Translations under genes and position numbers: made by a program
In this document: positions 3,611 through 43,217 of the stretch, piece after piece
Layout of the letters: each line of letters begins with the position of its first letter
Position numbering within the stretch: the first letter of the stretch is position 1
The notes under the pieces: generated by a model
The model's input: only the letters and a program-made list of their open reading frames with translations
Databases searched by the model: none
What the model was told of the DNA's origin: nothing
NCBI RefSeq assembly: GCF_001625215.2
Contig: NC_030387.2
Span: forward strand, 372,001-436,000
Direction: 5' to 3'
Origin: Daucus carota subsp. sativus
Lineage: Eukaryota > Streptophyta > Magnoliopsida > Apiales > Apiaceae
Length of the DNA stretch: 64,000 bases

Positions 3611-3708
3611 GATCTTTTCTTATAAACTGATAGTTGAAGATGTGAGCAAGGGAAAAGAATTTTAGAACTGTGAGACTGTTGCGATGAAAATAGAGAACTC
3701 AGAGCAGC

Positions 3709-7529: not shown

Positions 7530-7660
7530 TCACGTCTATGTGTGTGAGTGTGAGTTTGTGATTTCTATAAGTCTCTGGTGTATGTTAATTGTGTGACAAG
7601 TACTTTTATGTTGCTGGACGAGTGATTAAGATCCAGTACTTCTGTTTGTATGCTGAATCG

Positions 7661-7666
7661 AATAAA
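7661..7666 (+). terminator. Probable poly(A) signal
   Basis: AATAAA about 130 bp after the PR-10 stop. The same motif stands at the same place after the gene at 11586-12154. Confidence 0.5.
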
Positions 7667-11470: not shown

Positions 11471-11478
11471 TACAAATA
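11471..11478 (+). promoter_or_regulatory. Variant TATA box of the PR-10 gene at 11586-12154
   Basis: The position that is TATAAATA in the sister genes reads TACAAATA here, within an otherwise conserved GGCACTACAAATAGCTGC block. This may weaken the promoter. Confidence 0.6.
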
Positions 11479-11585
11479 GCTGCTTTGAGTTCTCTAATTT
11501 CATCATCTACATCTCAAAGCAAAAACCTTAAGTTCTTATTCTTTGCTCAGATAAATATATTCAGCTATCATTCTCCAAGAAAATC

Positions 11586-12154: not shown

Positions 12155-12286
12155 TCACGTCTATGTGTGTGAGTGTGTGATTTCTATAACTCTCTGGTTT
12201 GTGTTAATTGTGTGACAAGTACTTTTATGTTGCTGGACGAGTGATGCTTAAGATCCAGTACTTCTGTTTAATTGTTTGCTGAATCG

Positions 12287-12292
12287 AATAAA
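12287..12292 (+). terminator. Probable poly(A) signal
   Basis: AATAAA about 130 bp past the PR-10 stop, matching the position in the sister unit. Confidence 0.5.
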
Positions 12293-13014
12293 AAGAGACT
12301 CAATTATGACATTTGCATGTGTATTGGTATCATGATTAAAAGTCGCATCTGAATATGGAAACTCTCCATCCATTTGAAATCTCACTTTTGTTTAAAAGCA
12401 TAAAAACGATATAATAAGCGAACAAACTAATAACGCAGTGGTTAAAATTATATATATGTATGGATAAAATGCCACTTTAAGCAATGTAAGATAAATCTCA
12501 TACCGGGCTGATGGGTCCAGCTTCAGGGTTTATATATATGTTATATAACATTAACCTCACTCTTGTAGTACCCTCCATTTCTATCTCTTTTATTCAGGTG
12601 CTGGGTGCACACGCTTGCAATCGTGTTGAGATCAAGATGAGTTGGTTAGCAAGATGACTGTTTATATATGATGACTATAACTTTTTGTGATGATCTTATA
12701 ATCTGGTATAAAAGGATAGATATTAAGGAATAGAGGTAATAAGGGGAGGACTGGGTAAGGGACCATGGGCTGCTCGCCAGATCGCCCGGCTGGAACTATC
12801 AAGACAATTCTTGGATCCGCCAGAGGCTAATACAGATGCGAAGATTAAGACAGAAAAGAGGAGGGGACTATCGAATGTACTTAAAATGTCAAACATCTGA
12901 GCTTGCCTGGAAAATTGAACTGCTTGCCAATATTGAAATTTTACCAAAATCAGAAGTTTCCTTCAAACTTGAATTATATGCAGATTTTAAACTTTTTACA
13001 TGATTATACAAGTC

Positions 13015-13336
13015 TGTTGGCATTAATCTAAAACTTGTCTGCATGATATGCATCAGTGATGTAGTTTACTAGTCGTTGCGTAGTTGTAGGAAATGATTGA
13101 ATAAAACTTAGTAGTAGAATTGTAGTAGGAGAGTTGTTCCTTGTTTCTAGCAGTAGTTAGCTAGCAGTGTTTAGCACTTAGTTACTAGTAGTTATCTTTA
13201 CTTATTTTGCTTTCTATTTAACGCATGTAATCTGGATGGAATGAAGTTAAGTCTTTGGAGTAACATTTGCCTTGTTTTCTCAGTTTCAATATCAAACAGA
13301 ATACTATAAGTATTGCTATATTTATAAACTTCTACA
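13015..13336 (+). repeat. 5' LTR of the copia element
   Basis: Begins TGTTGGCATTAATC and ends CTTCTACA. It is 322 bp, like its partner at 17475-17796, and I found no difference between them by eye. Confidence 0.95.
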
Positions 13337-13338
13337 CT

Positions 13339-13350
13339 TGGTATCAGAGC
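13339..13350 (+). promoter_or_regulatory. Primer-binding site (initiator Met-tRNA type)
   Basis: TGGTATCAGAGC, two bases past the 5' LTR, complements the 3' end of plant initiator methionine tRNA. Confidence 0.9.
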
Positions 13351-13385
13351 CAGGTTTAGTAACGAGGTGAGTGTCAAAGGCTGAG

Positions 13386-16300
13386 ATGGACGCGAACAAG
13401 CTTAAAGGAGGTTCGATTGGCCTTAGTTACCCTATGTTGGCAAAGGGGAACTATACGGCGTGGTCCATGAAAATGAAGGTATTTATGCAAGCACACGGGG
13501 TGTGGGATGCTGTTGAATCAAGTAATCCCAAAGCTGCAGTTGAAGAGAAAACGGACAAGATCGCATTGGCTATGATCTATCAAGCGATTCCAGAGGAGAT
13601 AATGTTGTCGCTTGCAGATAAACGGACGGCCAAAGACGCCTGGGAGGCGATTAAGACCAGGTGTCAAGGTGCTGAAAAGGTTAAAAAGGCGAGGGTTCAA
13701 ACACTGAGAGCCGAATTCGAGGCGTTAACTATGAAGGATTCTGACCAGCTTGATGATTTCTATACAAAAATCAATGGAATTGTGTCGAATATACGGGCCT
13801 TAGGCGAAGAAATAGCAGAAGCATACATAGTCAAGAAATTGTTGCGAGCTGTTCCATCAAAATTTTTGCAAATTGCCTCCGCTCTTGAGCAGTTCGGGAA
13901 TCTCGACACCATGTCTGTGGAGGAGGTCATAGGATCCCTTAAGACTCATGAAGAAAGGTTAAGGGGCACTGTAACCAGCAACGAAGAACAACTGATGCTA
14001 ACAGAAGAAGAATGGCAAAAGAAAGAAAATGATGGAGGGAAACTATTGCTTACACGAGAGGAGTGGATAAAGAAATCAAATCGAGGAGCATCAAATGGAG
14101 GGGCAAGAGGACGTGGGAATCGTGATAAGAGTCAAGTAAGATGCTACAATTGTGGTATTGTTGGCCACTTTGCAGCTGAGTGTAGAAAACCACGTCGTGC
14201 AAGAGAACAAAAACAAGAAGTGAACATTGCCTCAATAGAAGATGATGAGCCTGCTCTGTTGTTGGCAAAGCACGAAGATGCAGATGTGGTACTGCTAAAC
14301 GAAAGTAAGTTGACACCAAAACTTCTATCTGCAGGCGTCGAGAAACAGGGAGAATCTAATGTCTGGTACCTGGATAATGGAGCCAGCAACCACATGACGG
14401 GTGATAAATTGAAGTTTGACAAGTTGGATGAAGAAGTCAATGGTAAGGTAAGATTTGGAGATGGTTCCACGATCAAAATTGAGGGAAAGGGCTCGATAAA
14501 ATTCAGGTGCAAGAATGGAGAAGAGAAAACACTACACGATGTCTATTACATACCGACTTTGTGTAATAACATTATCAGCATTGGGCAACTTTCTGAAGGA
14601 GGGAATAAGGTAGTAATCAGTGGGGATTTACTCAGAGTGTATGATGATCAGGAGAGATTGCTGATGAGGGTCAAAAGATCGAGCAACAGACTGTATAAAC
14701 TCATTATCGAGTTGAGTACACCTATTTGCTTACTCACAAAGTCTGACGAAACTTCTTGGATTTGGCACTCGCGTCTGGGGCATGTAAATTTTCAAGCTAT
14801 GTTATTGATGTCAAGAAAGCGGATGGTAGATGGTTTGCCTGAAATTGTTCAACCCAAGGGAGTGTGCAGTGGATGTCTTATGGCCAAACAAGTAAGAAAA
14901 TCTTTTCCTTCTCAGTCAAGTTTTAAAGCAAAGCATGCCTTGGAACTCATTTATGGAGACCTGTGTGGCCCAATTGCACCCAATACACTAGCTGGAAATC
15001 AGTATTTTTTCTTGTTGGTAGATGACTATACACGTGTTATGTGGGTGTACATGCTTAAAAATAAAAATGATGCATTTGGTGTGTTTAAGAAATTCTGTGC
15101 TAAAGTTGAGAACAAGCGAAGTGGGAAAATTGGAATGTTTAGAACTGACAGGGGAGGGGAGTTCATGTCGAATGAATTTAAAGCATATTGCGAGGAGCGT
15201 GGAATAATCAGGCAATTTACTGCTCCATACACACCTCAGCAGAACGGCGTGGTGGAAAGGAGAAACCGGACAGTGGTTGAAATGGCCAGGTCCTACTTGA
15301 AACATATGAAGATGCCTTCAACAATGTGGGCTGAGGCAATCAGGCATTCAGTCTATGTTCTAAATAGACTTCCAACTCGAGCTTTGTCTGACCAGACTCC
15401 TTATGAAATGTGGATGAAAACAAAGCCAGATATTAGTCTTATTCGGGTTTTTGGCTGTGTTGCTCATATGAAAATACCGGGAAACAGAACAAGTAAGTTG
15501 GATGATAGAAGTTTGAAGGTGGTTAACCTTGGGAAAGAGCCTGGTACAAAGGCCTACCGTCTGTATGATCCAGGATGCAATAAATTGTATGTTAGTCGAG
15601 ATGTAACGTTTGAAGAAGAGAAGGCTTGGGATTGGAACAATTCGGGCGAGACAGAAACGAGTCGTGTGCAGTCCTTCACTATACCAGATGGGTTCACAAA
15701 TGAGAAAAGTGACATTGAAACTTCAAGGCAGGAACATACAGGTGCCGCAGAAGAAAGTGAGGCTGTGACACCAGTATCTCAGCACTCGAACTCAGTCTAC
15801 AATTCTGAAAATTATGATGACAGTGCTACTCCTAAGAAGTTCAAATCTATTGACGACGTGTATCAAGATACAGAGGAGATAGAGATTGAAGATGAGCTTC
15901 TACTCATGGGTATTGATGAGCCAACCTCATATAGCCATGCAGTGAAAGATAAGGCCTGGAGACAAGCCATGAAGAATGAAATGGAATCCATCGAGAAAAA
16001 TGGAACGTGGGAACTCACTACTTTACCACCAGGACACAAAGAGATTGGTTTAAAGTGGATCTACAAGTTAAAAAAGGATGCTGATGGGAATGTTGTGAAG
16101 CATAAGGCTCGATTAGTTGCTAAGGGATATGTGCAAGAAAAAGGAGTTGATTTCGACGAGGTCTTTGCCCCGGTAACACGCCTGGAGACAGTACGCTTAT
16201 TGCTAGCTTTAGCAGCAAAAAATATGTGGGAGGTGCACCATCTTGACGTTAAAACGGCTTTCTTAAATGGCGAAATTGGCGAAGAAGTGTATGTAACACA

Positions 16301-17459
16301 GCCGGAGGGGTTCATAAAAAAGGGCAAAGAAAATCAAGTGTACAGATTGATCAAAGCACTATACGGGCTTAGACAAGCACCTCGGGCGTGGTACTCGAAG
16401 CTTAACAAATGCCTGGAAGATCTTGGGTTCATAAGATGTCCATACGAACATGCAGTTTATGTTCGACGTAAAGGAAACGAGGCAATAATCATTGGAGTAT
16501 ATGTAGATGATTTGCTGATCACAGGAACTGATATATCTCTTATTAAGCAATTCAAGGAACAAATGAGCACCAAGTTTGAAATGAGTGACATGGGAAAATT
16601 AAATTATTACTTGGGGATTGAGGTGAAACAAGGAGCTGGGTTCACTGAGTTGAAACAATCTGGTTATGCTAGAAAGGTCCTCGAACGAGCTGGTATGTCT
16701 CAGTGCAATCCTTGTAAATATCCCATGGATCCGAAAGAAAGCTTGACTAAGGACGAGGGAGGCAGGACTGTTGATGTTACACAGTTCAGAAGCATAATAG
16801 GTGGATTGCGATACCTTGTCCATACCAGACCTGACATAGCATTTTCGGTGGGAATCGTGAGTAGATTTATGGAAAGGCCAACCATTGTGCATTTGAATGC
16901 AGCAAAGCGGATTTTAAGATACATTAAGGGCACCTTGGACTATGGACTGGTGTATACTAAGGATGCTGGGAATAATATTCTGACAGGATACTCGGATAGT
17001 GATCTTGCAGGTCATGTTGAGGACAGAAAGTCGACTGGAGGCATGGTTTTCTATTTAAACGAAAGTCTGGTCACCTGGGTTTCGCAAAAACAACGTTGTG
17101 TCGCATTGTCTTCATGCGAAGCGGAGTTCATGGCGGCAACAGCGGCGGCTTGTCAAGCAATATGGCTGAGGAACGTGCTGAAGGAGATAACAGGTGAACA
17201 AATTGGTCCCGTGCTTATTTATATTGATAATAAATCTGCTATTGATCTAGCAAAGAACCCGGTTTTCCACGGGAGGAGCAAACATATCGACATCCGATAT
17301 CATTTTATACGTGAATGTATTGAACGTGGGGAAGTCATAGTGAAGCATGTTAGCAGCGAGAACCAGAAGGCTGATCTATTAACAAAGGCTCTGCTTGCTG
17401 TGAAGTTTGAGAGAATGAGGAGTTTGCTGGGTATCGAGCATCTCAGTGGACAAGTTTGA
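13386..17459 (+). CDS. copia gag-pol polyprotein
   Basis: A single frame of about 1357 aa counted from the ATG at 13386. The frame is open a little upstream, but without an ATG. Parts in order: gag, a CCHC zinc knuckle (CYNCGIVGHFAAEC) near residue 250, protease near 330, integrase with its HxxxH region and catalytic core near 460-640, reverse transcriptase with YVDDLL near 1040, and RNase H near 1200-1300. Copia elements make one polyprotein that their own protease cuts. The element supplies its own promoter in the LTR. Confidence 0.93.
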   Translation: MDANKLKGGSIGLSYPMLAKGNYTAWSMKMKVFMQAHGVWDAVESSNPKAAVEEKTDKIALAMIYQAIPEEIMLSLADKRTAKDAWEAIKTRCQGAEKVKKARVQTLRAEFEALTMKDSDQLDDFYTKINGIVSNIRALGEEIAEAYIVKKLLRAVPSKFLQIASALEQFGNLDTMSVEEVIGSLKTHEERLRGTVTSNEEQLMLTEEEWQKKENDGGKLLLTREEWIKKSNRGASNGGARGRGNRDKSQVRCYNCGIVGHFAAECRKPRRAREQKQEVNIASIEDDEPALLLAKHEDADVVLLNESKLTPKLLSAGVEKQGESNVWYLDNGASNHMTGDKLKFDKLDEEVNGKVRFGDGSTIKIEGKGSIKFRCKNGEEKTLHDVYYIPTLCNNIISIGQLSEGGNKVVISGDLLRVYDDQERLLMRVKRSSNRLYKLIIELSTPICLLTKSDETSWIWHSRLGHVNFQAMLLMSRKRMVDGLPEIVQPKGVCSGCLMAKQVRKSFPSQSSFKAKHALELIYGDLCGPIAPNTLAGNQYFFLLVDDYTRVMWVYMLKNKNDAFGVFKKFCAKVENKRSGKIGMFRTDRGGEFMSNEFKAYCEERGIIRQFTAPYTPQQNGVVERRNRTVVEMARSYLKHMKMPSTMWAEAIRHSVYVLNRLPTRALSDQTPYEMWMKTKPDISLIRVFGCVAHMKIPGNRTSKLDDRSLKVVNLGKEPGTKAYRLYDPGCNKLYVSRDVTFEEEKAWDWNNSGETETSRVQSFTIPDGFTNEKSDIETSRQEHTGAAEESEAVTPVSQHSNSVYNSENYDDSATPKKFKSIDDVYQDTEEIEIEDELLLMGIDEPTSYSHAVKDKAWRQAMKNEMESIEKNGTWELTTLPPGHKEIGLKWIYKLKKDADGNVVKHKARLVAKGYVQEKGVDFDEVFAPVTRLETVRLLLALAAKNMWEVHHLDVKTAFLNGEIGEEVYVTQPEGFIKKGKENQVYRLIKALYGLRQAPRAWYSKLNKCLEDLGFIRCPYEHAVYVRRKGNEAIIIGVYVDDLLITGTDISLIKQFKEQMSTKFEMSDMGKLNYYLGIEVKQGAGFTELKQSGYARKVLERAGMSQCNPCKYPMDPKESLTKDEGGRTVDVTQFRSIIGGLRYLVHTRPDIAFSVGIVSRFMERPTIVHLNAAKRILRYIKGTLDYGLVYTKDAGNNILTGYSDSDLAGHVEDRKSTGGMVFYLNESLVTWVSQKQRCVALSSCEAEFMAATAAACQAIWLRNVLKEITGEQIGPVLIYIDNKSAIDLAKNPVFHGRSKHIDIRYHFIRECIERGEVIVKHVSSENQKADLLTKALLAVKFERMRSLLGIEHLSGQV

Positions 17460-17463
17460 GATT

Positions 17464-17474
17464 ATGGGGGAGAA
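17464..17474 (+). promoter_or_regulatory. Polypurine tract of the copia element
   Basis: ATGGGGGAGAA lies immediately before the 3' LTR, the place where plus-strand DNA synthesis is primed. Confidence 0.85.
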
Positions 17475-17796
17475 TGTTGGCATTAATCTAAAACTTGTCT
17501 GCATGATATGCATCAGTGATGTAGTTTACTAGTCGTTGCGTAGTTGTAGGAAATGATTGAATAAAACTTAGTAGTAGAATTGTAGTAGGAGAGTTGTTCC
17601 TTGTTTCTAGCAGTAGTTAGCTAGCAGTGTTTAGCACTTAGTTACTAGTAGTTATCTTTACTTATTTTGCTTTCTATTTAACGCATGTAATCTGGATGGA
17701 ATGAAGTTAAGTCTTTGGAGTAACATTTGCCTTGTTTTCTCAGTTTCAATATCAAACAGAATACTATAAGTATTGCTATATTTATAAACTTCTACA
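17475..17796 (+). repeat. 3' LTR of the copia element
   Basis: 322 bp, identical by eye to the 5' LTR, and followed directly by the AAGTC target duplication. Confidence 0.95.
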
Positions 17797-18280: not shown

Positions 18281-18371
18281 TATACATCAGAAAAGACAGA
18301 AACTACATCAAACACTCATTCAAAAGGATGCAGGTGCACTACTCCCAAATAACACAAACCCGACAGATTGA

Positions 18372-19187
18372 TTAATTTGCAATGACATAGGCCTCAACAA
18401 CCTTGAAAAGCAACGTGTTCTGCTGATCGGCATACTTGATGTTCTCTTCTGGCACCACGGCGTCGCCTTTCGTGTGGTATATGGCTGTGGTGGTGGTGGT
18501 GCTGCCTCCATCAGCATTAGGCACAACCACAACATGATTTTCAATTTTATCAAGGAATCCCATCAGGATGTCTCCCCCGATCGCGCTGTAATCCAGTGTC
18601 CGTGCCTTCTTGTCAATAGCATCGGTTCTAACTGTCATTGTGGTAATTGGGGCACCTGCAATGAAAATAGGAAATGATACTAAATTAATTTTGTCCAATA
18701 CTCCCTCCTTCCCCGTCAATACAATACATTGGAGGACGGGGACGCTCTAATGCTCGAATAAACTAGTATAGTTCTGCAAATTATTTTTAATATTTTCTCT
18801 TTATGTATAAAGATATAACAATTTTTATTTTTATATAAAAAAAAATTTAAAAAAAAAGTTCTAAAACTATATTTTACCAAAAATACGTGCCGAGCAGTGA
18901 AATAAAACATATACAGGTGAATAAGATAGAGAGAGTCTGAATTATGAAAAACATGCAGCAACTAGAAACTCAAATGATGTAATTAAGAAATCCACTGGAA
19001 ACTGACCATCAGGAAGAGTGATATGTTTGATTGTTCCAGCTCCGCCATCGCCTATGGTTTCGACATGCTTATAAGCTCCTGGGGCAACCTTGGCCAGAAT
19101 GCTGTACATATCAATGACTAAGCCCTGGAACATTTTCTCTGCTGAGACAGATGAAGTAATCTCGAGTACATGCTTCTGTACACCCAT
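18372..19187 (-). CDS. PR-10 / Bet v 1 family protein, divergent subgroup A member
   Basis: Exons 19007-19187 and 18372-18655 flank an unusually long 351-bp GT-AG intron at codon 61. A 235-bp Stowaway MITE inside it explains the extra length. The product is 154 aa (start MGVQKHVLEITSS, loop GDGGAGT at 46-52, end EAYVIAN). Oddities: the usual IDGD reads IGGD (residue 87), and the lysine of the Bet v 1 signature (DGGSTTK) is threonine (DGGSTTT). DMYSILAKV replaces the common DxDTxxPKA. The frame and splice sites are intact. The changes may alter ligand binding, which is unproven. Confidence 0.92.
18701..18935. mobile_element. Stowaway MITE inside a PR-10 intron
   Basis: CTCCCTCCTTCCCCGTCAAT follows TA at the left. 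The right part (GTGCCGAGCAGTGAAA) matches the element at 44670-44920 read in reverse, so both belong to one family. The right end, GAGAGAG, is eroded. Removing it leaves an intron of about 115 bp, like the sister genes. Confidence 0.75.
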
Positions 19188-19266
19188 GATCAAGTAACAA
19201 GATAGCTGCAAGTTTATGCTATATTTGATTGATATGAAGATGAATTAGCTAGGAACTAGGAGCTGA

Positions 19267-22235: not shown

Positions 22236-22594
22236 AATGGTTTTAGAAGTGGTTGATATGCCATGATAATTGATAATTTATAAATATTTTTTAAGAATTT
22301 TCTTATATCATCCCAATAATTTAATCCAAAATACATAGCTTATAACTAGTGAAGGCTAGTATTTCTGGAGTATTTATTGAAACATCTTGCATCATATATT
22401 CCAAGTAAGTTTAACACGATACAATTACACGTACACATCTCATAGTTCGACATCTCATAGTTGAGACTCTTTATTTATCAGTAAACACAGACAAGTCCAA
22501 GAAATGAGAATGACTTGGACAAAAACATAGAAGTACTTCCACACAAACACACGCCAGAGACCTGGAAAATTGACACTCGCACACAAAGACGCAG

Positions 22595-23161
22595 TTAATT
22601 TGCAATGAGGTAGGCTTCGACGGCCTTGAATAGCATTGTGTTCTGCTCCTCGGCATACTTAATGTTCTCTTCTGGCACCACAGCATCTCCTTTGGTGTGG
22701 AATATGGCCGTAGTCTTGGTGGTGCTGCCTCCATTGGCAGTCGGCACCACTGATAGATGATTTTCAATTTTTTCAATGAATCCCATCAGAATATCTCCGT
22801 CGATGTAACTGTAATCGATTGTGCAATTCTTCTTGTCAAGGCCGTCAGTTCTCAGGGTCATTGTGGTCACTGGGCCACCTGGTTATTCATATAGGGAAAC
22901 AAAATTAAAAAAATGTGCTTCAGCAAAAATTGTTATACTAAATAAATTTTAAAAAAGTGGTTAATAGGTAAGAAACTAACCTTCGGGAAGAGTGATGTGC
23001 TTGATGGTTCCAACTCCACCATCACCTTTGATTTCGACATTCTTGTAAGCTCCGGGAGCCGCCTTGGGGAGAACGTTATCGATATCGAGGATCAAGCCAT
23101 GGAACATCTTCTCTGCCGGGACAGAGGAGGTGATCTCTTGTTCGTGCTTCTGGACACCCAT
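22595..23161 (-). CDS. PR-10 / Bet v 1 family protein (Api g 1 / Dau c 1-like)
   Basis: Exons 22981-23161 and 22595-22878 flank a 102-bp GT-AG intron at codon 61. The product is 154 aa (start MGVQKHEQEITSS, loop GDGGVGT at 46-52, end EAYLIAN). It is the duplicate of the gene at 3049-3610. Differences include V3 for L3, NV for NI near residue 29, SYIDGDI for SVIDGDV, and TANGGS for TADGGS. A TATA box precedes it at 23270. Frame and splice sites are intact, so it is probably functional. The shared flanks show that it was copied with its promoter. Confidence 0.95.
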
Positions 23162-23269
23162 GATTTTTTCTTAGAAAATAATATCTAAAGATGTGAGAAG
23201 AAAGTTGTGAATGAACTCAAGTGTAGAACTGTGAGACTGATGCGATGAAAATAGAGAACTCAGAGCAGC

Positions 23270-23277
23270 TATTTATA
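23270..23277 (-). promoter_or_regulatory. TATA box of the PR-10 gene at 22595-23161
   Basis: TATAAATA on the minus strand in the same TATAAATAGCTGCT context as the duplicate gene at 3.6 kb. Confidence 0.75.
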
Positions 23278-23597
23278 GTGCGAGCACCTCAATGTAAAAA
23301 TAATGCATATTCAAATAAATATAAAACCTTGCAAGATAATCCGAATACATGCAAGTTATTGCGGTGGATGTTGAATTTTTTAATCTAGTTCTAGAATGCA
23401 TTGACTCGTTGAGGTTCATAGTCGTATGTAAGCACCGGATAGATTACGGTTATTTGGTAGGGAGTACAGGCATTTAAATCAGATTTTGAAACCATCACGT
23501 ATATGCGTTTAAATAAAACCAGAAAATATAATCCAAGCAGTGGGTTTATCTTTTGTGGTCTGGGGACATCTATGTTCAAACCCATACTCATTTTTAA

Positions 23598-25210: not shown

Positions 25211-25249
<39 letters not shown>

Positions 25250-26632
25250 TATATATCGTGAATGTTTTTACTTGTTGTTCTTATGTAAGATAACATAAAA
25301 GTTGAGAAGAAAATGTAGGTTGTATAAAATTCGTCTAAAGTGTTTAATAACAAATAACTAATACTTAAAATTAAATATTATTTACTATAATTTTTAGTTT
25401 TCACTTATATACATATATGTGTGTATATATATATGTGCGCGCGCGGACGCAGGTGCGCAAGTGCAAGTGATTAATTAGAAATCAATATTATTAAGAAACT
25501 AAAAACCACTCCCGCAATTATTGTTTATAACTAGGTACAGAATCACTTGTTCATGCACTATTAATCAATATTATAAAATAATTAATATAATTATTTTGAT
25601 AATTGAGAAAAATTTCTTATATTTATTATTGATGGTCAATTATTGATGATTAATTATTGTTGTGGAAGGTTCATGATAATAGCAAGGAACGAAAAGAGGT
25701 ATGTAGTGGTGGTAAATAGTCATTAATAGTGGCAAGTTACGGTGGCAAATGATGATAGGCTAATAGCGATTGTATGTGATGATGACAGTATTGAAAGGGT
25801 TCGATAATGATGTTAGGTGGCAAGTTAAGGTGGCAAATGACCATAGGCTAATCTATATATTTATATTTGTGAGATTTCTAACTTCAATATAGTGATTATA
25901 AATGATGTACAAACAAGTAATATTTGTAGGTGAAAATTAGTGATAAAAAATTGGTCAAAGACTAGTTTCTAGTTTCTAACCTAATTTTTTTATTATATAT
26001 AGATGTTAATTGCAATATATGCTAACTTTTAAAAATTAAGATGTATAAGTCGTCTTCTAAGTACACATGTTTAAGGTGGATAAAATAATTTCATTATTTA
26101 TCATGTCTCACAATAATAATTCACTAAAAAAATTATATCATTTATTTAACTTATTTTATAATATGATCTCGAAGTTTCACTTATATTTTTGTTACTAATT
26201 GTAAATATACATTCTTGTTGTATTTTTTAATTAACCAATACATTTCCAAAGCTTTAAGGGGGTACCAAGTGAGCTTATCATGATTATATTATTTCACACT
26301 CTTGCTTAATTATAGGTATACTGAAACTCAAACAAAAAAAAAAATCAAATCAAACATGTCACCTTTGTAGGACTTCAATATGATATTTCTCCATAAGCCC
26401 CTCATGACTTTTTAGGGGCCCATATATAGTCTATCAGAGTATTAAAAATCTTAATCATTAAAAATTTAAAATTTTGAAATTTGAATAATATTATTTAATA
26501 AGATGATGTTTTGAGTTGTCTATAATTATGTCTATGTTAAAATTATTATTACTATTTCAATTTATTTTTTTTAACGTAAGAACCGCAGCCGCTACCCTTT
26601 GAGTGCGCACGGGATAAACCCACGAGTATGAG
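24906..26632. other. AT-rich intergenic DNA with short repeats
   Basis: Holds a (TA)n run at 25212-25245, a short duplicated ATTATAGACTTAGGAATATA block near 25161-25215, and a repeated GGTGGCAAATGA block near 25740 and 25835. No gene was recognised. Confidence 0.5.
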
Positions 26633-26826
26633 TTGGAACTTGTTGTTTTGGAAGAAACAAAAAAATTATTTAGATATAATATAATGATCAACTTAAAAGT
26701 TATTGTAAATATACCAAAGAAAAATATTAAATTATTATTTGAGGAATATTTTGATTACAAGAAAGGTCATTTCACAAAATTTATTATTATATACGCCATC
26801 TAATATCTTGTGCATTAGAGTCTAGC

Positions 26827-28802
26827 TATAAAACCCCCCATCCAACTATCTAAATAAATTAACACTTTGTATTATTTAATTCTCATTAAGATTTTATAAC
26901 CTACCCATCTTTGTTGAAAGCAACTTTTACATCCTCGTTATTCTCGAATTCACCAGTCAGATCTAGTTTTATTGAAGAGTTTACAATACATACAACTATA
27001 TTCAAGAGTTTGCAAGATCCATACATTCAGATTTCATCGGAAATAACTTGGTAAGTCATTTTCTAATTCGATTCGTAGTCAATTGTTTTTACATTTATTC
27101 CAAAATAAAAAAGCTGAAATCAATCTAATTCGATGTATTCTGTACACGAATTCATGTACTTGTTGTTTGATTCTTAAAATGTCGATCGATTTGGCTTTGA
27201 TTGAAATTTTGAGTTTCAAATGAATTGTTGTATCGAAACCTCGCGATTGAGATTTATTTTAGATATTTGGGTTAGATTCAGATCTTAATTGGTAATCATC
27301 CTAAAAATTTTGTTTTTGTGAGAATAAACCAATCTACATGTTAATATATTAAATTGTTGCTTTGATTTGATTTTTTTGAAATTGCACATATCATGAGACG
27401 TATAAGATTTTTTACTTGATTATATATTAGATTTTTTATTATGATTATTAATTTTATATATTTTTATGATGCAGGAAACAATAAAGAAAGTGCTTCAAAT
27501 AAATGTCTTTTGGAATGACACCGGGCAGGTTATATTTTCATATATATTAAAGTTTAATAAAGATTTCATATGCAGGACATTAATCTTTCCATTTTTCATG
27601 TGAATATATGTATGTAAATGTGTTCGACAAGAAAAAACTTACAATATTTTATAATCTTCTTCCCGAAATGTCATTAGAATACACATAGGTTTTGTGTGTG
27701 GGGGGCAACTAAAAAGGGAATGAAGGAATATCTATCATATATATAACAATAACAGTAGTGCAAAATTTTATGAGATGGTGTTTTTTCTAGAGTCAATCAT
27801 AGTTTGCATCGGTTGACAATTGTTGTAAAAATCCATAATGGGCGTACTCCCTCCAACTCATCCAATTGTTTATATTTGACTGTGGCCCACAGTTTAATTA
27901 AGAAAATTGTATAAGTTATTGTGAAAAGCGAGTAAAATAGGTCTTGCCAAGTTTTAATCTATAGATTTGGAGAAATGGATTAAATTATAGGTGGGTATAA
28001 TTTTTATTTTATAAAGGTTTACTTGAAAAGTTTTGAAATGTAAAGTCTTGACCAAGACAAAACGAATGTAAAGAAATGGTTGGGAAAGATGGCGTAATTG
28101 GTACCAGGCTTGTTATGCCACACGTCCTTAGAGTCTGGAGATAGTAACCGGAAAATATGGCTCAGCTTGAAAGCTAAAACTCTTTTTTTTTCAAATAGCA
28201 TCAACTTTATTTTAAATATGCCTCTCATGATCATTCAGGTCAAACTTGTGAGATGCAAAGTCGAAAATATTCCAATCGATATATGGTTTAATCAGCTGGG
28301 TGGACTTTCGACATTAAGTTTTCTGGAACAGGTATTGCACCGGCATTTTAATTTGATAATTTATAAGTTTCTTCTTTATAAAGAAGATAAGACACAATTT
28401 TATTGTAATGCAGGTGGATCAGCTCGTTAACAAGAATCATCTTTTTAAGCGGAGTATTCTGCTCATAAAAGCTTAGTGCCACTATGAATGTCGTATCCTT
28501 GACGTTTTTCATGGTTTACTGGCTACATATGCTTTGGAAGCTTTGATTCTATTCATATTCCAGCTGTTTAATTCATCTTTAAATGGACCTCTACTGGTAA
28601 ATTTTATGTGACTGTGTGTGTATGACATTGTAGTTATTTATGCATTCTATTCTTGAGCATGTTTGTTCTGTAATGTATTTTACTATTTTTACCAGTGTAG
28701 GTGCGTTATCGATTTTTCGATTATTTTGCAAAATTTGATCGTAAGAACTATTGTTTCAGTTTGGAGGTCCAGTTCTCACATCATCCCTTCCCAATCTAGT
28801 TG
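26827..28802 (+). pseudogene. Nucleotidyltransferase (TUTase / poly(A) polymerase-like) pseudogene, left copy
   Basis: Starts with a TATAAAA and a leader exon with a GTAAGT donor near 27050. A 54-nt exon lies at 27475-27528, followed by exons with intact splice sites at 28239-28331 (VKLVRCKVENIP, NQLGG), 28414-28596 (NHLFKRSI, ATYALEAL) and 28701-28802 (YRFFDYFAKFD). These are the core and substrate-binding parts of plant NTP-transferase/TUTase-like proteins. It is dead: a Trp codon in KAWCHYE is TAG, the last exon is one base short against the right copy (102 versus 103), and the ATG of the small exon reads ATA. No catalytic loop or 3' exons were recognised. The parent gene is not in the window. 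Confidence 0.8.
27847..28094. mobile_element. Stowaway-like MITE, left arm
   Basis: CTCCCTCCAACTCATCCAAT at the left, GGTTGGGAAAGATGG at the right, TA on both sides. The same element sits at the matching place in the right arm, so it predates the inverted duplication. Confidence 0.65.
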
Positions 28803-30100
28803 GTAAACATATATTTTCAATTAATGTGTCTTCTTTATTGCACTAACTACTAATATAGTGGTAGAAATGATGAAATTCTTTTTTTTGTGTACATGTAATT
28901 ACGGATCAAGGGAATGGATATTGCTTTGAAGAGAAGATATGAGATCATATACCGAATTGTTTTTATCATATATGCTTGGTTGATCTCCTTGGTGAATTCG
29001 GAAAGCTACACGATACTTATGAATACATAAAACACGTAAAATGTGAACGTGAACCAGGCTTGTGAGGGGCAAATATTTTATTCGACTTAAATCATGAGAA
29101 TGCTTGATATTACATTTTGCTGACAAAGATGTATATAGCTACGGGAAGATGGAGCAATATTGTTGATTTTTGAAGCCCTATAACTAATCGATTAATGTTG
29201 ACCTTAAAGATTTAGGTGGTTTAGAGTTCACCCTGCCATCTCAATATAAGTAGCTTGCTTGTTCCTTGCAAGTCGAACCTATATTAATTTGTAATATATA
29301 TACTATTCCATTTCTAAGTAAAAATTTAAGATTCATACAACACAGTAATAAGGACTTATTTCTAGATAAAAGTACATAAAACTCCACTTTTTTTGAAAAA
29401 GATAAATTCTTATTTCTTTTATCAAATAATGAAAATGAAATACCTCTTTACTATTTAATTATATCAGGAAAAAACTTATTAAATAACTCATTCTTTTAAG
29501 AGAATAAATATTTATTTTTTTATATGTGGTACCCAAAGGGGCACAACAATATACCAAAATTTGGAAGAAGATTATAAAACCTATGTTTATTTTAAAAATG
29601 AACTTGTAAAAGGGGACAGAGGGAGTATGTTCTTGCCTTTGAAGGTTTATAATTAATACAAGTCCGTTAGTCATGAGAAAAAAAAAGTTACTCTTTACCC
29701 AGCCAAACACCTCTTGGAAAACATATATGGTCATGTTGTAGCTTATGATGAATCACCAAATTTTGGCATATTGTTGTGCCTGTTTGGGTACCACATATAA
29801 AAAAAATAAAAATTATTCTCTTAAAAGAATGAGTTATTTAATAATTTTTTCTAATATTGTTAAATAGTAAAGAGGTATTTCATATTCATTATTTGATAAA
29901 AATTAAGAGTTTGTTTTCTTTTAAAGTAAAGTTTTATGTACTTTTATCTAGAAATAAGTCCTTACTACTCTACTTTGTTGTATGAATCTTAAATTTTTAC
30001 TTAGAAATGGAATAGTATATATATTACAAATTAATATAGGTTCTACTTGCAAGGAACAAGCTAGCTACTTCTATTGAGATGGCAGGGTGAACTCTCTAAA

Positions 30101-30302
30101 CCACCTAAATCTTTAAGGTCAAAAGAGAAAAACATTAATCGGTTAGTTATAGGGTTTCTAAAATCAACAATATTGCTCCAACTTCCGGTAGCTATATACA
30201 TCCACCTAAATCTTTAAGTTCAAAAGAGAAAAACATTAATCGGTTAGTTATAGGGCTTCTAAAATCAACAATATTGCTCCAACTTCCGGTAGCTATATAC
30301 AT
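30101..30302. repeat. 101-bp tandem duplication
   Basis: Two near-identical copies (30101-30201 and 30202-30302), each starting CCACCTAAATCTTTAAG. The left arm has a single copy, so it arose after the inverted duplication. Confidence 0.9.
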
Positions 30303-30401
30303 ATTTGTCAGCAAAATGTAATATCAAGCATTCTCATTATCTAAGTCGAATAAAATATTTGCCCCTCACAAGTCTGGTTCACGTTCACAGTCTACGTGCA
30401 T

Positions 30402-31383
30402 TGTTATTTTACACCAACTAAGAGAAAGATTGTAGAAGGGGGGGGTTGAATACAATCTTTTACAAATTTAAAAGATTCAAGAATAATATACTAAGAACAC
30501 AGTAAACAGAAAAACACCAAGTATTAAAAATACGGGTGGATTGAATGATCCACCCGTGAGATTTTATATCGAAGAATCTGTGGATTGTTTACAATTCGCA
30601 CAGCTGCTGGTTCATCACTCAAACAAGTTCTAACTCTCAGATTTTTCTCTCAAGTAATTTGAACAAGTTCAACTGATGCTACTAACTTGGTTATATACTC
30701 CAAGTTTTACAAAGCTTTTAGCTAGATTACAAAATGCACTCTAATCTAAAAACAATGCTGCACAACTTTGTCTTATGCATGCTTTCTGAGATGTCTTCAT
30801 CTTTGACCATCACCTTGATTTGATCCAGATTGCACTGCATGAGATAAGTATGTTTCTGCTTCTTCTTTATTTTCCTAATTAGGCTTCCATGTCTATTTTA
30901 GTGTAATTCGATCCATGTGATTTGTCAGACTTAAGCTCTAGTCACTTTCAACTGCTCTTTGCTTCATCAGTTGAAAGTTCTGGTTGCTTTCAACTGCTCT
31001 TGACTTTATCAGTTGAATGCCCGGCTCATCAGTTGAATGAATTACAAACTCCATCAGTTGAATGCTGTTCCAGTCTCATCAGTTGAATTCCTCAGCATCA
31101 TCCGTTGAACACTTTGTCTTCAGTTGAATGCTTGATTTTCATCAGTTGAAACATCATCCAGTCTTCATCAGTTGAATAGTTACATCTCACCAGTTGAATA
31201 TCCTTCACTTAGATAAAATTACATGGCATTGGATATTTACAATTAGCCATCCTATTCTACCCATCCGTTGATAATTCCCAAAGACAAGAAATGTAACAAT
31301 TACAACTGAAATTTGATAAAGATTCTAAGTAAGACATGTTACAAAATGTTTATGTTATCATCAAAAATTATTGATTCCTAACA
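30402..31383 (-). mobile_element. Solo LTR of a Ty1/copia (SIRE/Maximus-like) element
   Basis: 982 bp. Read on the minus strand it begins TGTTAGGAATCAATAA and ends GTGTAAAATAACA, with TG...CA ends and a perfect 5-bp target duplication TGCAT (30397-30401 and 31384-31388). No internal region or second LTR is present, so it is a solo LTR left by recombination between two LTRs. The left arm shows the empty site. The lineage guess rests on LTR length and start only. Confidence 0.85.
30960..31215. repeat. Array of CATCAGTTGAA-type motifs inside the solo LTR
   Basis: About ten copies of (C)ATCAGTTGAA(T) at irregular spacing of roughly 15-30 bp, plus two copies in the reverse sense (TTTCAACTGCTCTT). 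They lie in the LTR's regulatory part. Confidence 0.8.
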
Positions 31384-31631
31384 TGCATGTTTTATGTATT
31401 CATAAGCATCGTGTAGCTTTCCGAATTCACCAAGGAGATCAACCAAGCATATATGATAAAAACAATTCGGTATATGATCTCATATCTTCTCTTGAAAGCA
31501 ATAGTTCTGCTCTGCCGTTCCCTTGATCAGTAACTACATGTCCAAAAAAAAAAAGGAATTTCATCATTTCTACCACTATATTAGTAGTTAGTACAATAAA
31601 GAAGACACATTAATTGAAAATATATGTTTAC

Positions 31632-33610
31632 CAACTAGATTGGGAAGGGATGATGTGAGAACTGGACCCTCCAAACTGAAACAATAGTTCTTCCGATCAA
31701 ATTTTGCAAAATAATCCAAAAATCGATAAAGCAACTACACTGGTAAAAATAGTAAAATAAATTACAAAACAAAAATGCTCATCAAATGCATAAATAACTA
31801 CAATGTCATACACACGCAGTCACATAAAAATTACCGCTAGAGGTCCATTTAAAGATGAATTAAATAGCTAGAATATGAATAGAATCGAAGCTTCCAAAGC
31901 ATATGTAGCCAGTAAACCATGAAACACGTTAAGGATACGACATTCATAGTGGCACCAAGCTTTTATGAACAGAATACTCCGCTTAAAAAGATGATTCTTG
32001 TTAACCTGGTGATCAACCTGCATTACAATTATATTGTGTCTTATCTTCTTTATAAAGAAGAAAATTATAAATTATCAAATTAAAATGCTGGTTCAATACC
32101 TGTTCGAGAAAACATAATGTAGAAAGTCCACCCAGCTGATTAAACCATATATCGATTGGAATATTTTCGACTTTGCATCTCACAAGTTTGACCTGAATGA
32201 TCATGAGAGGCATATTTAAAATAAAGTTGATATTATTTGGGAAAAAAAAAGTTTTAGCTTTCAAACTGACCAATATTTTCCGGTTACTATCCCCAGACTC
32301 TAGGGACGTGTGGCATAACAAGCCTGGTACCAATTACGCCATCTTTCCCAACCATTTCTTTACGATTGTTTTATAAATGTCCTCATCAAGACTTTACATT
32401 TCAAAACTTTTCAAGTAAACCTTTATAAAATAAAAATTATACCCACCTACAATTTAATCCATTTCTCCAAATCTATTGATTATAACTTGGCGTGACCCAC
32501 TATTTTACTTGCTTTTCACAATAATTTATACAATTTTCTGAAATTGTGGGCCACAGTCAAATATAAACAATTGGATGAGTTGGAGGGATTACGTCTATTA
32601 TGAATTTTTACAACAATTGTCAACCGATGCAAACTACAATTGACTCTAGAAACAACACCATCTCATAAAAATTTTGCACTACTGTTATTGTTATTATTAT
32701 ATATATGATAGATATTTCTTCATTCCCTTTTTAGTCCCCCCCCCCAAACAAAACAAAAAAACCTATGTGTATTCTAGTGACATTTCGGTTGTCGAACACA
32801 TTTACATACATATATTCACATGGAAAATGGAAAGGTTAAGGCCCTGCATAAGAAATCAATATTAAACTTTAATATATGTGAAAATGTAACCTGCCGAGTG
32901 TCATTCCAAAAGACAATTATTTGAAGCACTTTCTTCATTGTTTCCTGCATCATCAAAATATATAAAATTAATAATCATAATAATAAATCTAAGAATTAAT
33001 AATAATCAAGTAAAAATCTTATACGCCTCATGATATGTGCAATTTCGAAAAAATCAAATCACAAATCGTGTTGATGCTTTTGTGCCACAATTTAATATAT
33101 TAACAGGTAGATTGCTTAATTCTCACAAAAAAAAATTAGGATGATTAACGATTAAGATCTGAATCTAACCCAAATATCTAAAATCAATTTTAATCACGAG
33201 GTTTCGATACAACACAATTCAATTAAAACTAAAAATTTCAATCAAAGCCAAATCGATCGACATTTTAATCAAACAACAAGTACATGAATTCGTGTACAGA
33301 ATACATCGAATTAGACTGATTTCAGCCTTTTTATTTTGGAATAAATCTAAAAACAATTGACTACGAATCGAATTAGAAAATGACTTACCAAGTTATGTCC
33401 GATGAAATCTGAATGTTATGGATCTTGCAAACTCTTGAATATAGTTGTATGTATTGTAAAGTCTTCAATAAAACTAGATCTGACCGCTGAATTGGGGAAT
33501 AACGAGGATGTAAAAGTTGCTTTCAACAAAGATGAGTAGGTTATAAAATCTTAATGAGAATTAAATAGAAAGTTTTAATTTATTTAGATAGTTGGATGGT
33601 GGGTTTTATA
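31632..33610 (-). pseudogene. Nucleotidyltransferase (TUTase / poly(A) polymerase-like) pseudogene, right copy
   Basis: Mirror of the left copy. Exons with intact splice sites lie at 32100-32192, 31835-32017 and 31632-31734 (minus). The Trp lost in the left copy is kept here (KAWCHYE), the last exon keeps its full 103 bases (NYCFSLEGPV), and the small upstream exon keeps ATG. It has its own stop, TAG for the Gln of FIFQLF. The two copies therefore decayed separately and this one is the better preserved. The TATA-like TATAAAA is near 33604-33610. No 3' exons were found. Confidence 0.8.
32337..32589. mobile_element. Stowaway-like MITE, right arm
   Basis: Counterpart of 27847-28094 in the opposite orientation, with TA on both sides. 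Confidence 0.65.
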
Positions 33611-33814
33611 GCTAGACTCTAATGCACAAGATATTAGATGGCGTATATATCAATAAATTTTGTGAACCGACCTTTCTCGTAATAAAAATATTACTCAAAT
33701 AATAATTTAATATTTTTCTTTGGTATATTTACAATAACTTTTAAGTTGATCATTATATTATATGTAAATATTTTTTTTATTTCTTCCAAAACAACAAGTT
33801 CCAAGTCTTCCATA

Positions 33815-34005
33815 AAACTCCGAATTAGTTATTTTCTTTTGATATTTTCTTGTTTTTCAATAATTCTACACACCCGCATCTGTTCCTGCATCTTAGATCT
33901 ACTCGATTTTCAAAATTTTGATGCGGTGATAAATCAATTGAGATGAGTTAATGACGAGTTAGGCGACTTCAATTCAGTTTTAGCCATACCCCATGTGCAT
34001 ATTAT
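33815..34005 (+). repeat. Dispersed repeat, copy 1
   Basis: Shares TAGATCTACTCGATTTT, GGTGATAAATCAATTG and TTAATGACGAGTTAG motifs with 36590-36775 (reverse) and 41005-41165 (forward). No coding potential was recognised. It is of unknown type, perhaps part of a decayed transposable element. Confidence 0.65.
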
Positions 34006-34753
34006 ATTTAAATATATTTTTATTTGAGTAAAAAAAATAACTTTACTAAAAAAACACGTTTTAGAAATAATCTTATGAAGTTTGATCGTGTACTAAAATC
34101 ATATATGTAATAAAGAGAATATACAAATAAAATCGAAGTCGTATAGATGTAAACCAGGAAGAATTCTGCTTCTTTTAAAACTCTGTCTTAACTTGCTGTT
34201 TTGAATAAAAACTTGCTATTAAAATTTCCTGCAACACTGGGTTAACACATATAAAACAACAGGCTAGAAACAAGCAATATCAGAATGTTAAGCTGAAATA
34301 GAAATAAAGCTTGCTAAAATGCGATCATTAAAACTTGAGATTTAAAATCTCCCCCTTTTTGTATTACACACTTATTTCAAAGACAAATATACTCCCCCTG
34401 AATATGATAATCCTGCAATCATGTTAGCCACAAATAAAATTCTAACATATGTTATTATGCAACTATGACTCAGGTAATCTTTAAACACAATACTTAAAAT
34501 CAAGAAATTCAAATCCCGTTGATAACACAACATAACCAATCCATAAATCAACCATGGTTTGCTGATAAAATTAGCATCGTGGAGGAAAAGATTTGTGGGA
34601 ACAAATTTAAATAAAGCAGGTGTCTCTCCCTGTGTAGTTATGCTTTCATATATTCTCTGTAAAAACAGTGATCATGTAATGCTTTCAGCCGCATATATGC
34701 AATTCTCTATTTCTTCTCCTGCCTTATATTATGATAGATATAGATTTGTAACA

Positions 34754-34990
34754 TGGTATCAGAGCTTAGACTCGCGGAGACTCGAGTTCAACTTCCTGTG
34801 ATCCCAATATTCTCAGAATTTATTAAAGATACGAAGGCAAGTTTATGCCCTAAAAGATGGGCGCCCGTGATCCACTCTCGACCAAAATGGGCTTTCGAGT
34901 GAGGTGGAATGTTAGAATATGATTCTGTAATCCCTCTTCCTAACACCTTGAGGTTTTAGCCCTCTTCCTTAATGCTTTCTGATATGTGTA
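34754..34990 (+). mobile_element. TRIM-like LTR element remnant
   Basis: A primer-binding site TGGTATCAGAGC (34754-34765) is followed after only about 130 bp by a purine-rich tract and TGTTAGAATATG (from 34910), the layout of a miniature LTR element without genes. The 5' LTR was not matched convincingly. It is old and incomplete. Confidence 0.45.
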
Positions 34991-36775: not shown

Positions 36776-37048
36776 CGGTGGAAACCGATGAAATTGCCGA
36801 TTAAATTACAATTTGCAAGATTCGGATGTCGATCAATTTACTTAAACAGTTGAACATAATTAATCAGAGCTGTTAAATGTAAGAACAAGTGAACAACAAT
36901 TGCTGAGATGCATAATTTCAGAACCATTACACATTTGTGTCGTGACATTTTATTTATTTCAAGGAGACACTGATTTTCTCACATACACAAATTCTTATTA
37001 AGCTTCGGCATCTTTAGCCTTCTAAAATCTCATCAACAAATGGAGTCA

Positions 37049-37601
37049 TTAATTTGCAGTGAGGTAGGCCTCAACAGCCTTGAAAATGGCATTGTTGGTC
37101 TCAGTAGCATACTTAATACTCTCTTCTGGCACGACAGCGTCGCCTTTGGTGTTGAATATGATTGTGTTCTTCACGGTGCAGCCTCCGTCAGCTTTAGGCA
37201 CGAACACAACATGATTGTTAATGGAGTCGATGAATCCCAAGAGAATGTCCCCGTCGATTACAGAGTAACTGTAAGTTAAGGCTTCCTTGTCAATTGCATC
37301 AATCTTCTGCTTCATTGTGTTGTAGGGGCTGGCTGCATTTTTGTGCACAATTTTTTTTGTTAGAATAAAAAACATGTCGATAAAAAATATGATGCATGTA
37401 TTGTAAAAAAGACTAACCATCTCCGAGATGGACAAGCTTGATGGTTCCAACTCCGCCGTCTCCTTGAAGGATTTCAGAACTCTTGATAGCGCCAGGGAGA
37501 GCCTGAGGAAGAAGTGTATCGATGTCGAGGCACAAGACCTGGTACAACTTGCCTGCGGCGACTGTAGATGTTACTTCTACTTCGCTCTTCTGGACACCCA
37601 T
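37049..37601 (-). CDS. PR-10 / Bet v 1 family protein, subgroup B
   Basis: Exons 37418-37601 and 37049-37332 flank an 85-bp GT-AG intron that splits an Ala codon (residue 62). The product is 155 aa (start [13 protein letters not shown], loop GDGGVGT at 47-53, [12 protein letters not shown], end EAYLTAN). The extra residue before the loop, the LVHLGDA and the TMKQK segments separate it from the TMTLRTD subgroup and resemble the carrot Dau c 1.02-type isoform. VAAGKLYQV replaces the common SAEKLFKA. It is one of three subgroup B genes in a row on this strand. It looks intact. Confidence 0.94.
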
Positions 37602-37703
37602 TATACTTAACTAGAGCTGATAAGATAAATTGAGGAGATAGGTTTTGAAAAGAAGGATTGAGAAACAATGCTGAGGGATGAATGCTGGAGAAGTTTGAGC
37701 TGT

Positions 37704-38500: not shown

Positions 38501-38556
38501 AGCTCAGGCATCACTGGCCATCCAGGTCTCACGAACATACTATTATATAATCATAC

Positions 38557-39130
38557 TTAGTTGGCAATGAGATAAGCCTCAACAGCCTGGAAAATGGCGC
38601 GGTTCTGGTCATTAGCGAACTTAATGTTCTCTTCAGGGACGACAGCATCGCCTTTGGTGTTGAAAGTGATGGTACTCTTGACAGTGCAGCCACCATCAGC
38701 ATTAGGGACATACGCGAAGTGGTTGTTGATGGATTCAATAAATCCCAGAAGAATGTCTCCGTCGATGATGCTGTAAGCGTATGTGAAGGACTCTTTGTCA
38801 ATGGCATCCACCTTTTGCTTCATTGTCTTGAAGGGGCTCGCTGCATTGAGACACGGATGAATTAGTATCTGATCGATTTTTTAAAATTGTAAATTACTAA
38901 CAAGTAATATGATCATGGTCATAATAAAAGATAAAACAGGACTAACCATCGCCAAGATGGACAAGCTTGACGGTTCCAACTCCACCATCGCCCTCAAGAG
39001 TCTCGGAACTCTTGATAGCACCAGGGAGAACCTGAGGAAGAAGTGTATCGATGTCGAGGCACAAGGCCTTGAACAGTTTCTCTGCTGATACAGAGGAAGT
39101 GACTTCGGCTTCAGTCTTTTGGACACCCAT
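38557..39130 (-). CDS. PR-10 / Bet v 1 family protein, subgroup B
   Basis: Exons 38947-39130 and 38557-38840 flank a 106-bp GT-AG intron splitting an Ala codon. The product is 155 aa (start [13 protein letters not shown], loop GDGGVGT at 47-53, [21 protein letters not shown] in the signature, end EAYLIAN). It is close to the gene at 42301-43116. TATA box at 39233. The cysteine in DGGC is typical of this subgroup here. Frame and splice sites are intact. Confidence 0.95.
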
Positions 39131-42231: not shown

Positions 42232-42300
42232 TACTTGTCACACGCGCACACATTATTGATTATTCTCAATCGCCCTCATCAAAATATAGCATGATCATAA

Positions 42301-43116
42301 TTAGTTTGCAATGAGATGAGCCTCAATAGCCTTGAAAATGGCGAGGTTCTGGTCATTAGCGAACTTGATGTTCTCTTCAGGGACGACAGCATCGCCTTTG
42401 GTGGTGAAAGTGATGGTACTCTTGACAGTGCAGCCTCCATCAGCAGTAGGGACGTAGGTGAAATGGTTGTTGATGGATTCCACAAAATCTAGAAGAATGT
42501 CTCCGTCGATGATGGTGTAAGAGTAGGTGAAGGAGTCTTTGTCAATGACATCAACCTTTTGCTTCATTGTCTTGAAGGGGCTAGCTGCAATACACATATC
42601 CATAATTAACATATGTGAGTTGATCATCTAAAAAGATATTTATGCATCATGTCTACTGTTGTAGCCAATAAGCAGGACAAAATCAGTTTTTGGGGTCTTT
42701 AGTCTGTCTATATTATGGTTCGTCATCTAAAATCTTAAGACGTTCATAGTCTGTTGTGAGAATATTGGGGTGACGGAGAGTCAAACTTAGAGACATTTGT
42801 CACACCTGGCTCTGATGCCAAAACTGGTCCATCTAAAACCTAGTCTAGAAGAAGACGTTATATGAATCTTATGCTATATTTCAACATTACGTGATAATGA
42901 GGTGTGATTATAAATGATAAAAGAGTACTAACCATCGCCAAGATGAATAAGCTTGACGGTTCCAACTCCACCGTCACCCTCAAGGATTTCGGCACTCTTG
43001 ATAGCACCGGGAACAACCTGGGGAAGAAGTGTATCGATGTCGAGGCACAAGGCCTTGAACAGTTTCTCTGCTGACACAGAAGAAGTGGCTTCGACTTCAC
43101 TCTTTTGGACACCCAT
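42301..43116 (-). CDS. PR-10 / Bet v 1 family protein, subgroup B
   Basis: Exons 42933-43116 and 42301-42584 flank a long 348-bp GT-AG intron splitting an Ala codon. The extra intron length holds a decayed LTR-element piece. The product is 155 aa (start [13 protein letters not shown], loop GDGGVGT at 47-53, [14 protein letters not shown], end EAHLIAN). Two local changes, LLDF for LLGF and EAHL for EAYL, mark it off from its neighbour. TATA box at 43218. Its 3' region takes part in an inverted repeat that could fold into a hairpin. It looks intact. Confidence 0.94.
42660..42840 (-). mobile_element. LTR/TRIM-like remnant inside a PR-10 intron
   Basis: On the minus strand TGGCATCAGAGC (42809-42820) resembles a primer-binding site, followed nearby by CCCCAATATTCTCA, a motif also found just after the site at 34754. 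It is a small, old, incomplete fragment. Confidence 0.45.
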
Positions 43117-43217
43117 GATACAGAAACTGAGAAAATAAGAGCAAATGCAGGAGAGCAGGGGTGAATATTATAGATGTTGTGAGACTGGTACGAGTTAATA
43201 TGAGAGCTTTGAGCTGC

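Follow-up and report, generated by a model that had tools for sequence, protein, structure and literature searches.

A chimeric pseudogene of carrot and its inverted duplicate, most likely without a maintained function

Introduction

Does a long inverted repeat built of gene pieces serve a plant as a source of silencing RNA, or is it a duplicated pseudogene in decay? The question is posed by positions 26633-33804 of a 64,000-nucleotide stretch of the carrot genome (Daucus carota subsp. sativus, contig NC_030387.2), which is called the window here and corresponds to C7:372001-436000. The sequence-only reading of this stretch had described a tail-to-tail inverted duplication of a TUTase/poly(A) polymerase-like gene fragment with the potential to encode a long hairpin. 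The assembly searched comprises 441 Mb in 11 contigs, and the matches listed are located on contigs C1-C9. We consider it probable that the locus arose by inverted duplication of a chimeric pseudogene, is non-coding and is now decaying; it most likely lacks a maintained function and is possibly an occasional source of small interfering RNAs (siRNAs).

Architecture of the inverted repeat

The inverted repeat at 26633-33804 is real. Self-BLAST, repeat finding and end-to-end alignment of the arms all confirm its tail-to-tail arrangement. The opposite-strand self-BLAST pairs join 26633-27630 with 33804-32789 and 27663-29034 with 32788-31388 (E = 0), and the inner blocks extend to 29564 and 29756. 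The locus has three parts:

26633-29564, plus strand: left arm, the original, non-inverted chimeric pseudogene (self-BLAST, repeat finding, arm alignment; shared upstream sequence in the C3, C4 and C1 copies)
29565-29755, no strand: loop of 191 bp (arm alignment)
29756-33804, minus strand: right arm, inverted copy with later insertions (self-BLAST, repeat finding, arm alignment)

With positions 30399-31387 and a single unit of a 101-bp tandem duplication removed from the right arm, the arms are 2932 (left) and 2959 (right) bases long. These values, like the length of the loop, agree with the approximate 2.93 kb, 2.96 kb and 190 bp given earlier. The alignment of the arms has 2875 columns that are 93.8% identical, with 6.2% substitutions (83 transitions and 95 transversions), 25 indel events and a Kimura two-parameter distance of 0.065. 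The identity in blocks of 100 columns ranges from 88% to 97%, with a single block (start 28780) at 99%. Perfect runs of at least 21 bases number 44 and total 1691 bases, the longest being 110 bases, so that the claimed potential for a long hairpin is borne out. At a substitution rate of about 6.5e-9 per site per year, the divergence of the arms would correspond to roughly 5 million years.

Two later changes are confined to the right arm:

30402-31383, no strand: solo long terminal repeat (LTR) of 982 bp, ends read by eye
30101-30302, no strand: tandem duplication of 101 bp, copies 98% identical (self-BLAST, alignment)

The solo LTR is flanked by the 5-bp target duplication TGCAT at 30397-30401 and 31384-31388, as judged by eye. 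The matches listed for it (40 of 1665 candidates scored) comprise 39 other copies that are nearly full-length and 99-100% identical, as well as a partial one that is 98% identical.

Repeats of another kind are found in and near the loop:

29343-29545, plus strand: dispersed repeat resembling a miniature inverted-repeat transposable element (MITE), left arm, with an inverted counterpart in the right arm (genome matches)
about 29586-29629: end of a Stowaway-type MITE in the loop (repeat matches, motif GGGACAGAGGGAGTA)

The Stowaway label is presumed from the motif GGGACAGAGGGAGTA. No full second copy of the 191-base loop was found; the 16 other matches listed for it are 41-50 bases long and all fall in one stretch resembling a MITE end.

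Composition of the arms

The homologies show that each arm is chimeric, being assembled from two or more genes, among them a nucleotidyltransferase gene and a pentatricopeptide repeat (PPR) gene, together with a promoter/leader module of different history. The outer part of the arms is formed as follows:

26349-27690, plus strand: promoter/leader module, consisting of a TATA-like box, a leader, a stretch resembling an intron and a small one resembling an exon (about 27478-27528)
26826-26835, plus strand: TATA-like box CTATAAAACC of the left arm (motif match)
33602-33611, minus strand: TATA-like box CTATAAAACC of the right arm (motif match)
27690-28160, plus strand: segment joining the promoter module to the nucleotidyltransferase part, with a match to a dispersed repeat in its latter half

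The two TATA-like boxes, which had already been noticed, are each situated 193 bases inside the outer end of the arm. Relatives of the module occur on C3, at C4:20.546 Mb and at C1:25.479 Mb. The latter two hold the module without the other parts of the chimera, within the 9.5 kb fetched of each. The position of the box reads TATAAAA in the C3 copy and TGTAAAA in the C4 and C1 copies. For the joining segment, 41 matches were listed (40 of 188 candidates scored), many of them spanning about positions 264-362 of the query.

The inner part of the arms is derived from the two genes:

28156-28967, plus strand: nucleotidyltransferase fragment, left arm (homology to the gene at C7:25.51 Mb)
28236-28331, 28414-28599, 28701-28804 and 28912-28966, plus strand: left-arm exons c, d, e and part of f
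31455-32224, minus strand: nucleotidyltransferase fragment, right arm (homology to the gene at C7:25.51 Mb)
32195-32100, 32017-31832 and 31731-31630, minus strand: right-arm exons c, d and e
28965-29177, plus strand: 3' end of a PPR gene with E motif, left arm, joined to the nucleotidyltransferase piece in a different reading frame
30153-31457, minus strand: PPR 3' end, right arm, which contains the tandem duplication and is split by the solo LTR

A relative of the nucleotidyltransferase part lies at C7:25.51 Mb (L036:2683-6168). This gene is apparently intact: none of its seven homologous exon blocks is interrupted, and one of them contains VFPYGSVPLKTYLADGDIDMT, the start, stop and splice sites of the gene having been judged by eye alone. 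The Pfam MTPAP-like palm domain is recognised in its joined exons (E 5e-11), which also show weak similarity to the solved TUT7, Cid1 and GLD2 enzymes (best E 5e-4). The left-arm fragment is 81-85% identical to this gene, varying with the stretch and the scoring. The gene has diverged from the nucleotidyltransferase genes at C7:33.75 Mb and C8:0.43 Mb and possibly represents an additional member of this family of plant genes.

Neither arm has a counterpart of the parent exon that carries VFPYGSVPLKTYLADGDIDMT. The exons that are present are disabled. In the left arm, exon d has a stop (TAG, 28474-28476) and exon e a frameshift; in the right arm, exon d has a different stop, at 31870-31868. The possibility that either arm holds a functional terminal nucleotidyltransferase gene was considered and rejected: the catalytic palm exon with its DxD motif is absent, and the exons that remain carry stops and a frameshift.

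The PPR relative, at C1:2.76 Mb (L042:1005-3872), has a stop-to-stop open frame of 955 amino acids with an E motif. Homology to the nucleotidyltransferase gene stops at 28967 and homology to the PPR gene starts at 28965, leaving a short microhomology at which the frames disagree. The junction and an internal deletion in the PPR part are common to both arms and to the copy on C3. Pieces of separate genes, each with relatives elsewhere, have been joined and disabled, as is characteristic of a duplicated chimeric pseudogene. The exons of the TUTase/poly(A) polymerase-like gene are thus present as first described, but the duplication is not a simple one of that gene, which contributes only about 28156-28967. 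The PPR piece, the non-inverted version on C3, the role of the left arm as original and the absence of the catalytic exon had all been missed.

Origin of the duplication

The locus on C3 (C3:3.42 Mb) is collinear with 25213-29291 of the window, with gaps, and lacks nucleotidyltransferase exon c. No inverted partner was found beside it among the left-arm matches listed (40 of 299 candidates scored). Outside the shared unit, comparison of the C3 sequence with 29292-29342, with 29546-29760 and with the right flank of the locus gave scores within one standard deviation of shuffled sequences. The C3, C4 and C1 copies share left-flank sequence beyond 26633, and homology of the right arm stops at about 33807. 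As homology continues past the outer end of the left arm only, that arm is the original and the right arm its inverted copy.

A history in five steps can be proposed. Pieces of the nucleotidyltransferase and PPR genes would first have been joined at the short microhomology, and also to the promoter/leader module. The chimera would then have been copied between C3 and C7, and the MITE-like repeat would already have been present in the C7 copy before the inversion. About 2.9 kb would next have been duplicated in reverse immediately downstream with the 191-bp spacer left in between, template switching or break repair being the probable mechanism. Finally, both arms would have drifted, the right arm gaining the solo LTR and the 101-bp tandem duplication.

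Divergence of the arms

Changes between the arms were polarised by means of the parent nucleotidyltransferase gene over 789 columns. Twenty are specific to the left arm, 19 to the right arm and 8 are ambiguous. The arms differ at 23 of 441 positions in the four nucleotidyltransferase exon pieces and at 17 of 286 in the intervening introns. The most different section is the MITE-like part (22 of 196). Changes are thus spread evenly over the two arms and are about as frequent in exons as in introns, so that the arms are seen to decay neutrally.

Signs of past methylation, considered as a possible trace of earlier siRNA activity, are less clear. The ratio of observed to expected CpG is 0.72 and 0.74 in the arms, 0.69 in the window, 0.60 in the parent gene and 0.28 in the solo LTR; it is 0.80, 0.90 and 0.92 in the C3, C4 and C1 copies, which represent partly different stretches. 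The 83:95 ratio of transitions to transversions between the arms discriminates little, as the MITE controls are also near 1 (524:540).

Capacity to form a hairpin RNA

The strongest alternative to a decaying pseudogene is an active hairpin-RNA locus of the GmIRCHS type: transcription starting in one arm and passing through the loop would yield a 2.9-kb hairpin, and its dicing would supply siRNAs silencing the locus itself and, perhaps, its parent genes. Such activity is judged unlikely. The locus does have a closely spaced inverted repeat of gene-derived sequence, and because each arm retains a TATA-like box aimed at the loop, a hairpin transcript that crosses the loop is conceivable. It would fold into a long imperfect hairpin and could be cut by Dicer enzymes, as proposed for GmIRCHS. 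As the arms keep stretches close to both parents, the hairpin would have possible genomic targets, and silencing of the parent genes by it would be possible. However, AATAAA motifs occur in both arms in the transcribed orientation, seven in the left arm and five in the right arm plus loop (the solo LTR and the loop holding one each), so that a transcript may end before crossing the loop. The neutral drift of the arms also speaks against an active locus, as does the absence of a sign of cytosine deamination in the substitutions, a point on which the MITE controls are alike.

The capacity to match the parent genes was assessed with windows of 21 nucleotides, the window totals being taken from reversed controls of the same length; the seeding can miss some windows with three mismatches. 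At up to three mismatches, 208 of 1060 windows of the nucleotidyltransferase exons are matched by the left arm and 235 by the right, and 98 and 89 of 2848 windows of the PPR open reading frame (ORF). The counts are lower for the two other nucleotidyltransferase genes: C7:33.75 Mb has 58 and 68 such windows, and C8:0.43 Mb has 13 and 11. Controls at three mismatches gave 0 to 5 windows (left/right): 0/0 of 1060 for the reversed nucleotidyltransferase exons, 0/0 of 2848 for the reversed PPR ORF, 0/0 of 2380 for the first 2400 nucleotides of the PPR ORF, 0/0 of 1342 for a lectin kinase ORF and 5/3 of 4069 for a copia ORF. These matches count in favour of the hairpin alternative, in that a transcript folded in this way could target both genes. 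A more specific form of this alternative, that a two-gene hairpin with its own promoter in each arm is one siRNA source lowering both the terminal-nucleotidyltransferase-like and the PPR genes, seems quite improbable. If true, it would hit together a factor that maybe modifies RNA 3' ends and a probable organelle-RNA factor.

Several observations do weigh against a decaying locus without function. The TATA-like box has been retained in both arms, and the stretch upstream is 94.8% identical between them. Long perfect duplex runs persist, and exact 21-nucleotide windows remain, 5 (left) and 10 (right) for the nucleotidyltransferase gene and 8 (left) and 0 (right) for the PPR gene. The lack of selection between the arms does not rule out transcription. 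Some past methylation is possible, as the arm CpG ratios lie below those of the C3, C4 and C1 copies, though above that of the parent gene. In addition, the source gene of the promoter/leader module was not recognised in a search with the C1 copy, and the chimera may have been copied between C3 and C7 in either direction.

Comparison with known inverted repeats

By analogy of structure, the closest known case is GmIRCHS of soybean, and the locus fits the structural part of that kind. In the portion of the source drawn on here, GmIRCHS, at the I locus, is described as a fusion in which the 5' portion of a DnaJ gene, promoter included, adjoins pseudoCHS copies inverted tail to tail, the spacer being 78 bp and the arms 1087 bp long; CHS double-stranded RNA was detected and there is a seed-coat phenotype (PMC13051633). 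A promoter-bearing chimera, a tail-to-tail pseudogene repeat and a short spacer (191 bp in carrot) are common to both, which is a point in favour of an active hairpin locus. The carrot locus differs in having a promoter module in both arms, pieces of two genes and arms of 2.9 kb. Furthermore, double-stranded RNA and a phenotype are reported for GmIRCHS, whereas the carrot locus is known from sequence alone.

In rice, the part of the report consulted describes two pairs of inverted pseudogenes with stems of 154-185 nucleotides and mapped hairpin small RNAs (PMC2708354). Like these, the carrot locus consists of adjacent inverted paralogous pseudogenes that could fold as one transcript, but its stem is 2.9 kb and is described from its DNA only. 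Hairpin transgenes tend toward methylation and self-silencing, according to the part consulted of another source (PMC9263138). Titles and abstract starts searched in the literature yielded no paper tied to this locus.

Other explanations

A mobile fold-back element, moving as a unit by 2.9-kb terminal inverted repeats, is very improbable. It would account for the long terminal inverted repeats with a short centre and for the presence of chimera pieces at several places. However, there is no second inverted copy among the left-arm matches listed (40 of 299 candidates scored), the loop is not found in full elsewhere, and inspection of 26633/33804 by eye shows no target duplication. Position 26633 is not the end of an element, because homology runs past it into the C3, C4 and C1 copies. 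A fold-back DNA transposon was accordingly disfavoured, since no set of copies sharing the same ends appears among the matches listed.

Slighter still is the chance that the locus is a young microRNA (miRNA) gene founded by inverted duplication. In the part of the source drawn on, such duplication is a proposed origin of plant miRNA genes related to transposable elements and pseudogenes (PMC3237417), and the locus resembles this model in being an inverted copy of a gene or pseudogene piece able to target its parent. It differs in that its arms are long and evenly drifting and in that no Rfam match up to E 0.5 was found in 26000-34500; no short conserved foldback stands out in the 100-column blocks of the arm alignment. 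An assembly artefact placing one region twice can practically be dismissed, for although long inverted repeats are in general prone to assembly errors, these arms differ by 6.2% substitutions and 25 indel events and have different stop codons, and the right arm alone holds a solo LTR and its target duplication.

Neighbouring features of the window

The window contains an array of related Bet v 1 (PR-10) genes or pseudogenes in both orientations, according to self-BLAST and ORFs, which we take to be Dau c 1-like:

Bet v 1 array members: 2720-3868, 6802-7789, 11277-12417, 18369-19244, 22270-23439, 37048-37606, 38547-39130, 42291-43121, 49768-50091, 61343-62411

Two pieces were scanned with Pfam Bet_v_1, of which 49768-50091 passes the cut-off and 18942-19244 lies below it. 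A copia-type LTR retrotransposon at 13015-17796 has identical 322-bp LTRs and one open frame of 1362 amino acids, and for these reasons is probably a recent insertion. An S-domain lectin receptor kinase-like gene lies at 57300-60427, with B_lectin, S_locus_glycop and PAN domains at 57300-58661; the kinase-like ORFs downstream of these domains were assigned from the ORF list.

Downstream of the inverted repeat, 34749-34959 is a dispersed repeat with many copies about 75-91% identical among the matches listed (40 of 760 candidates scored). Another repeat, 25463-25987 (about 525 bp; region 25213-25987), is situated near a (TA)n tract. Many genome-wide copies among its matches listed (40 of 949 candidates scored) also adjoin (TA)n, and it may be a TA-microsatellite-associated element.

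Implications

One genome shows a series that leads from separate gene pieces to a chimera, then to a non-inverted copy and on to an inverted, GmIRCHS-like copy. If siRNAs are made from the locus, it would provide a natural test of whether a two-gene hairpin silences both of its sources. If they are not, the locus would show that decay can be the whole fate of a 2.9-kb inverted duplication next to a gene array.

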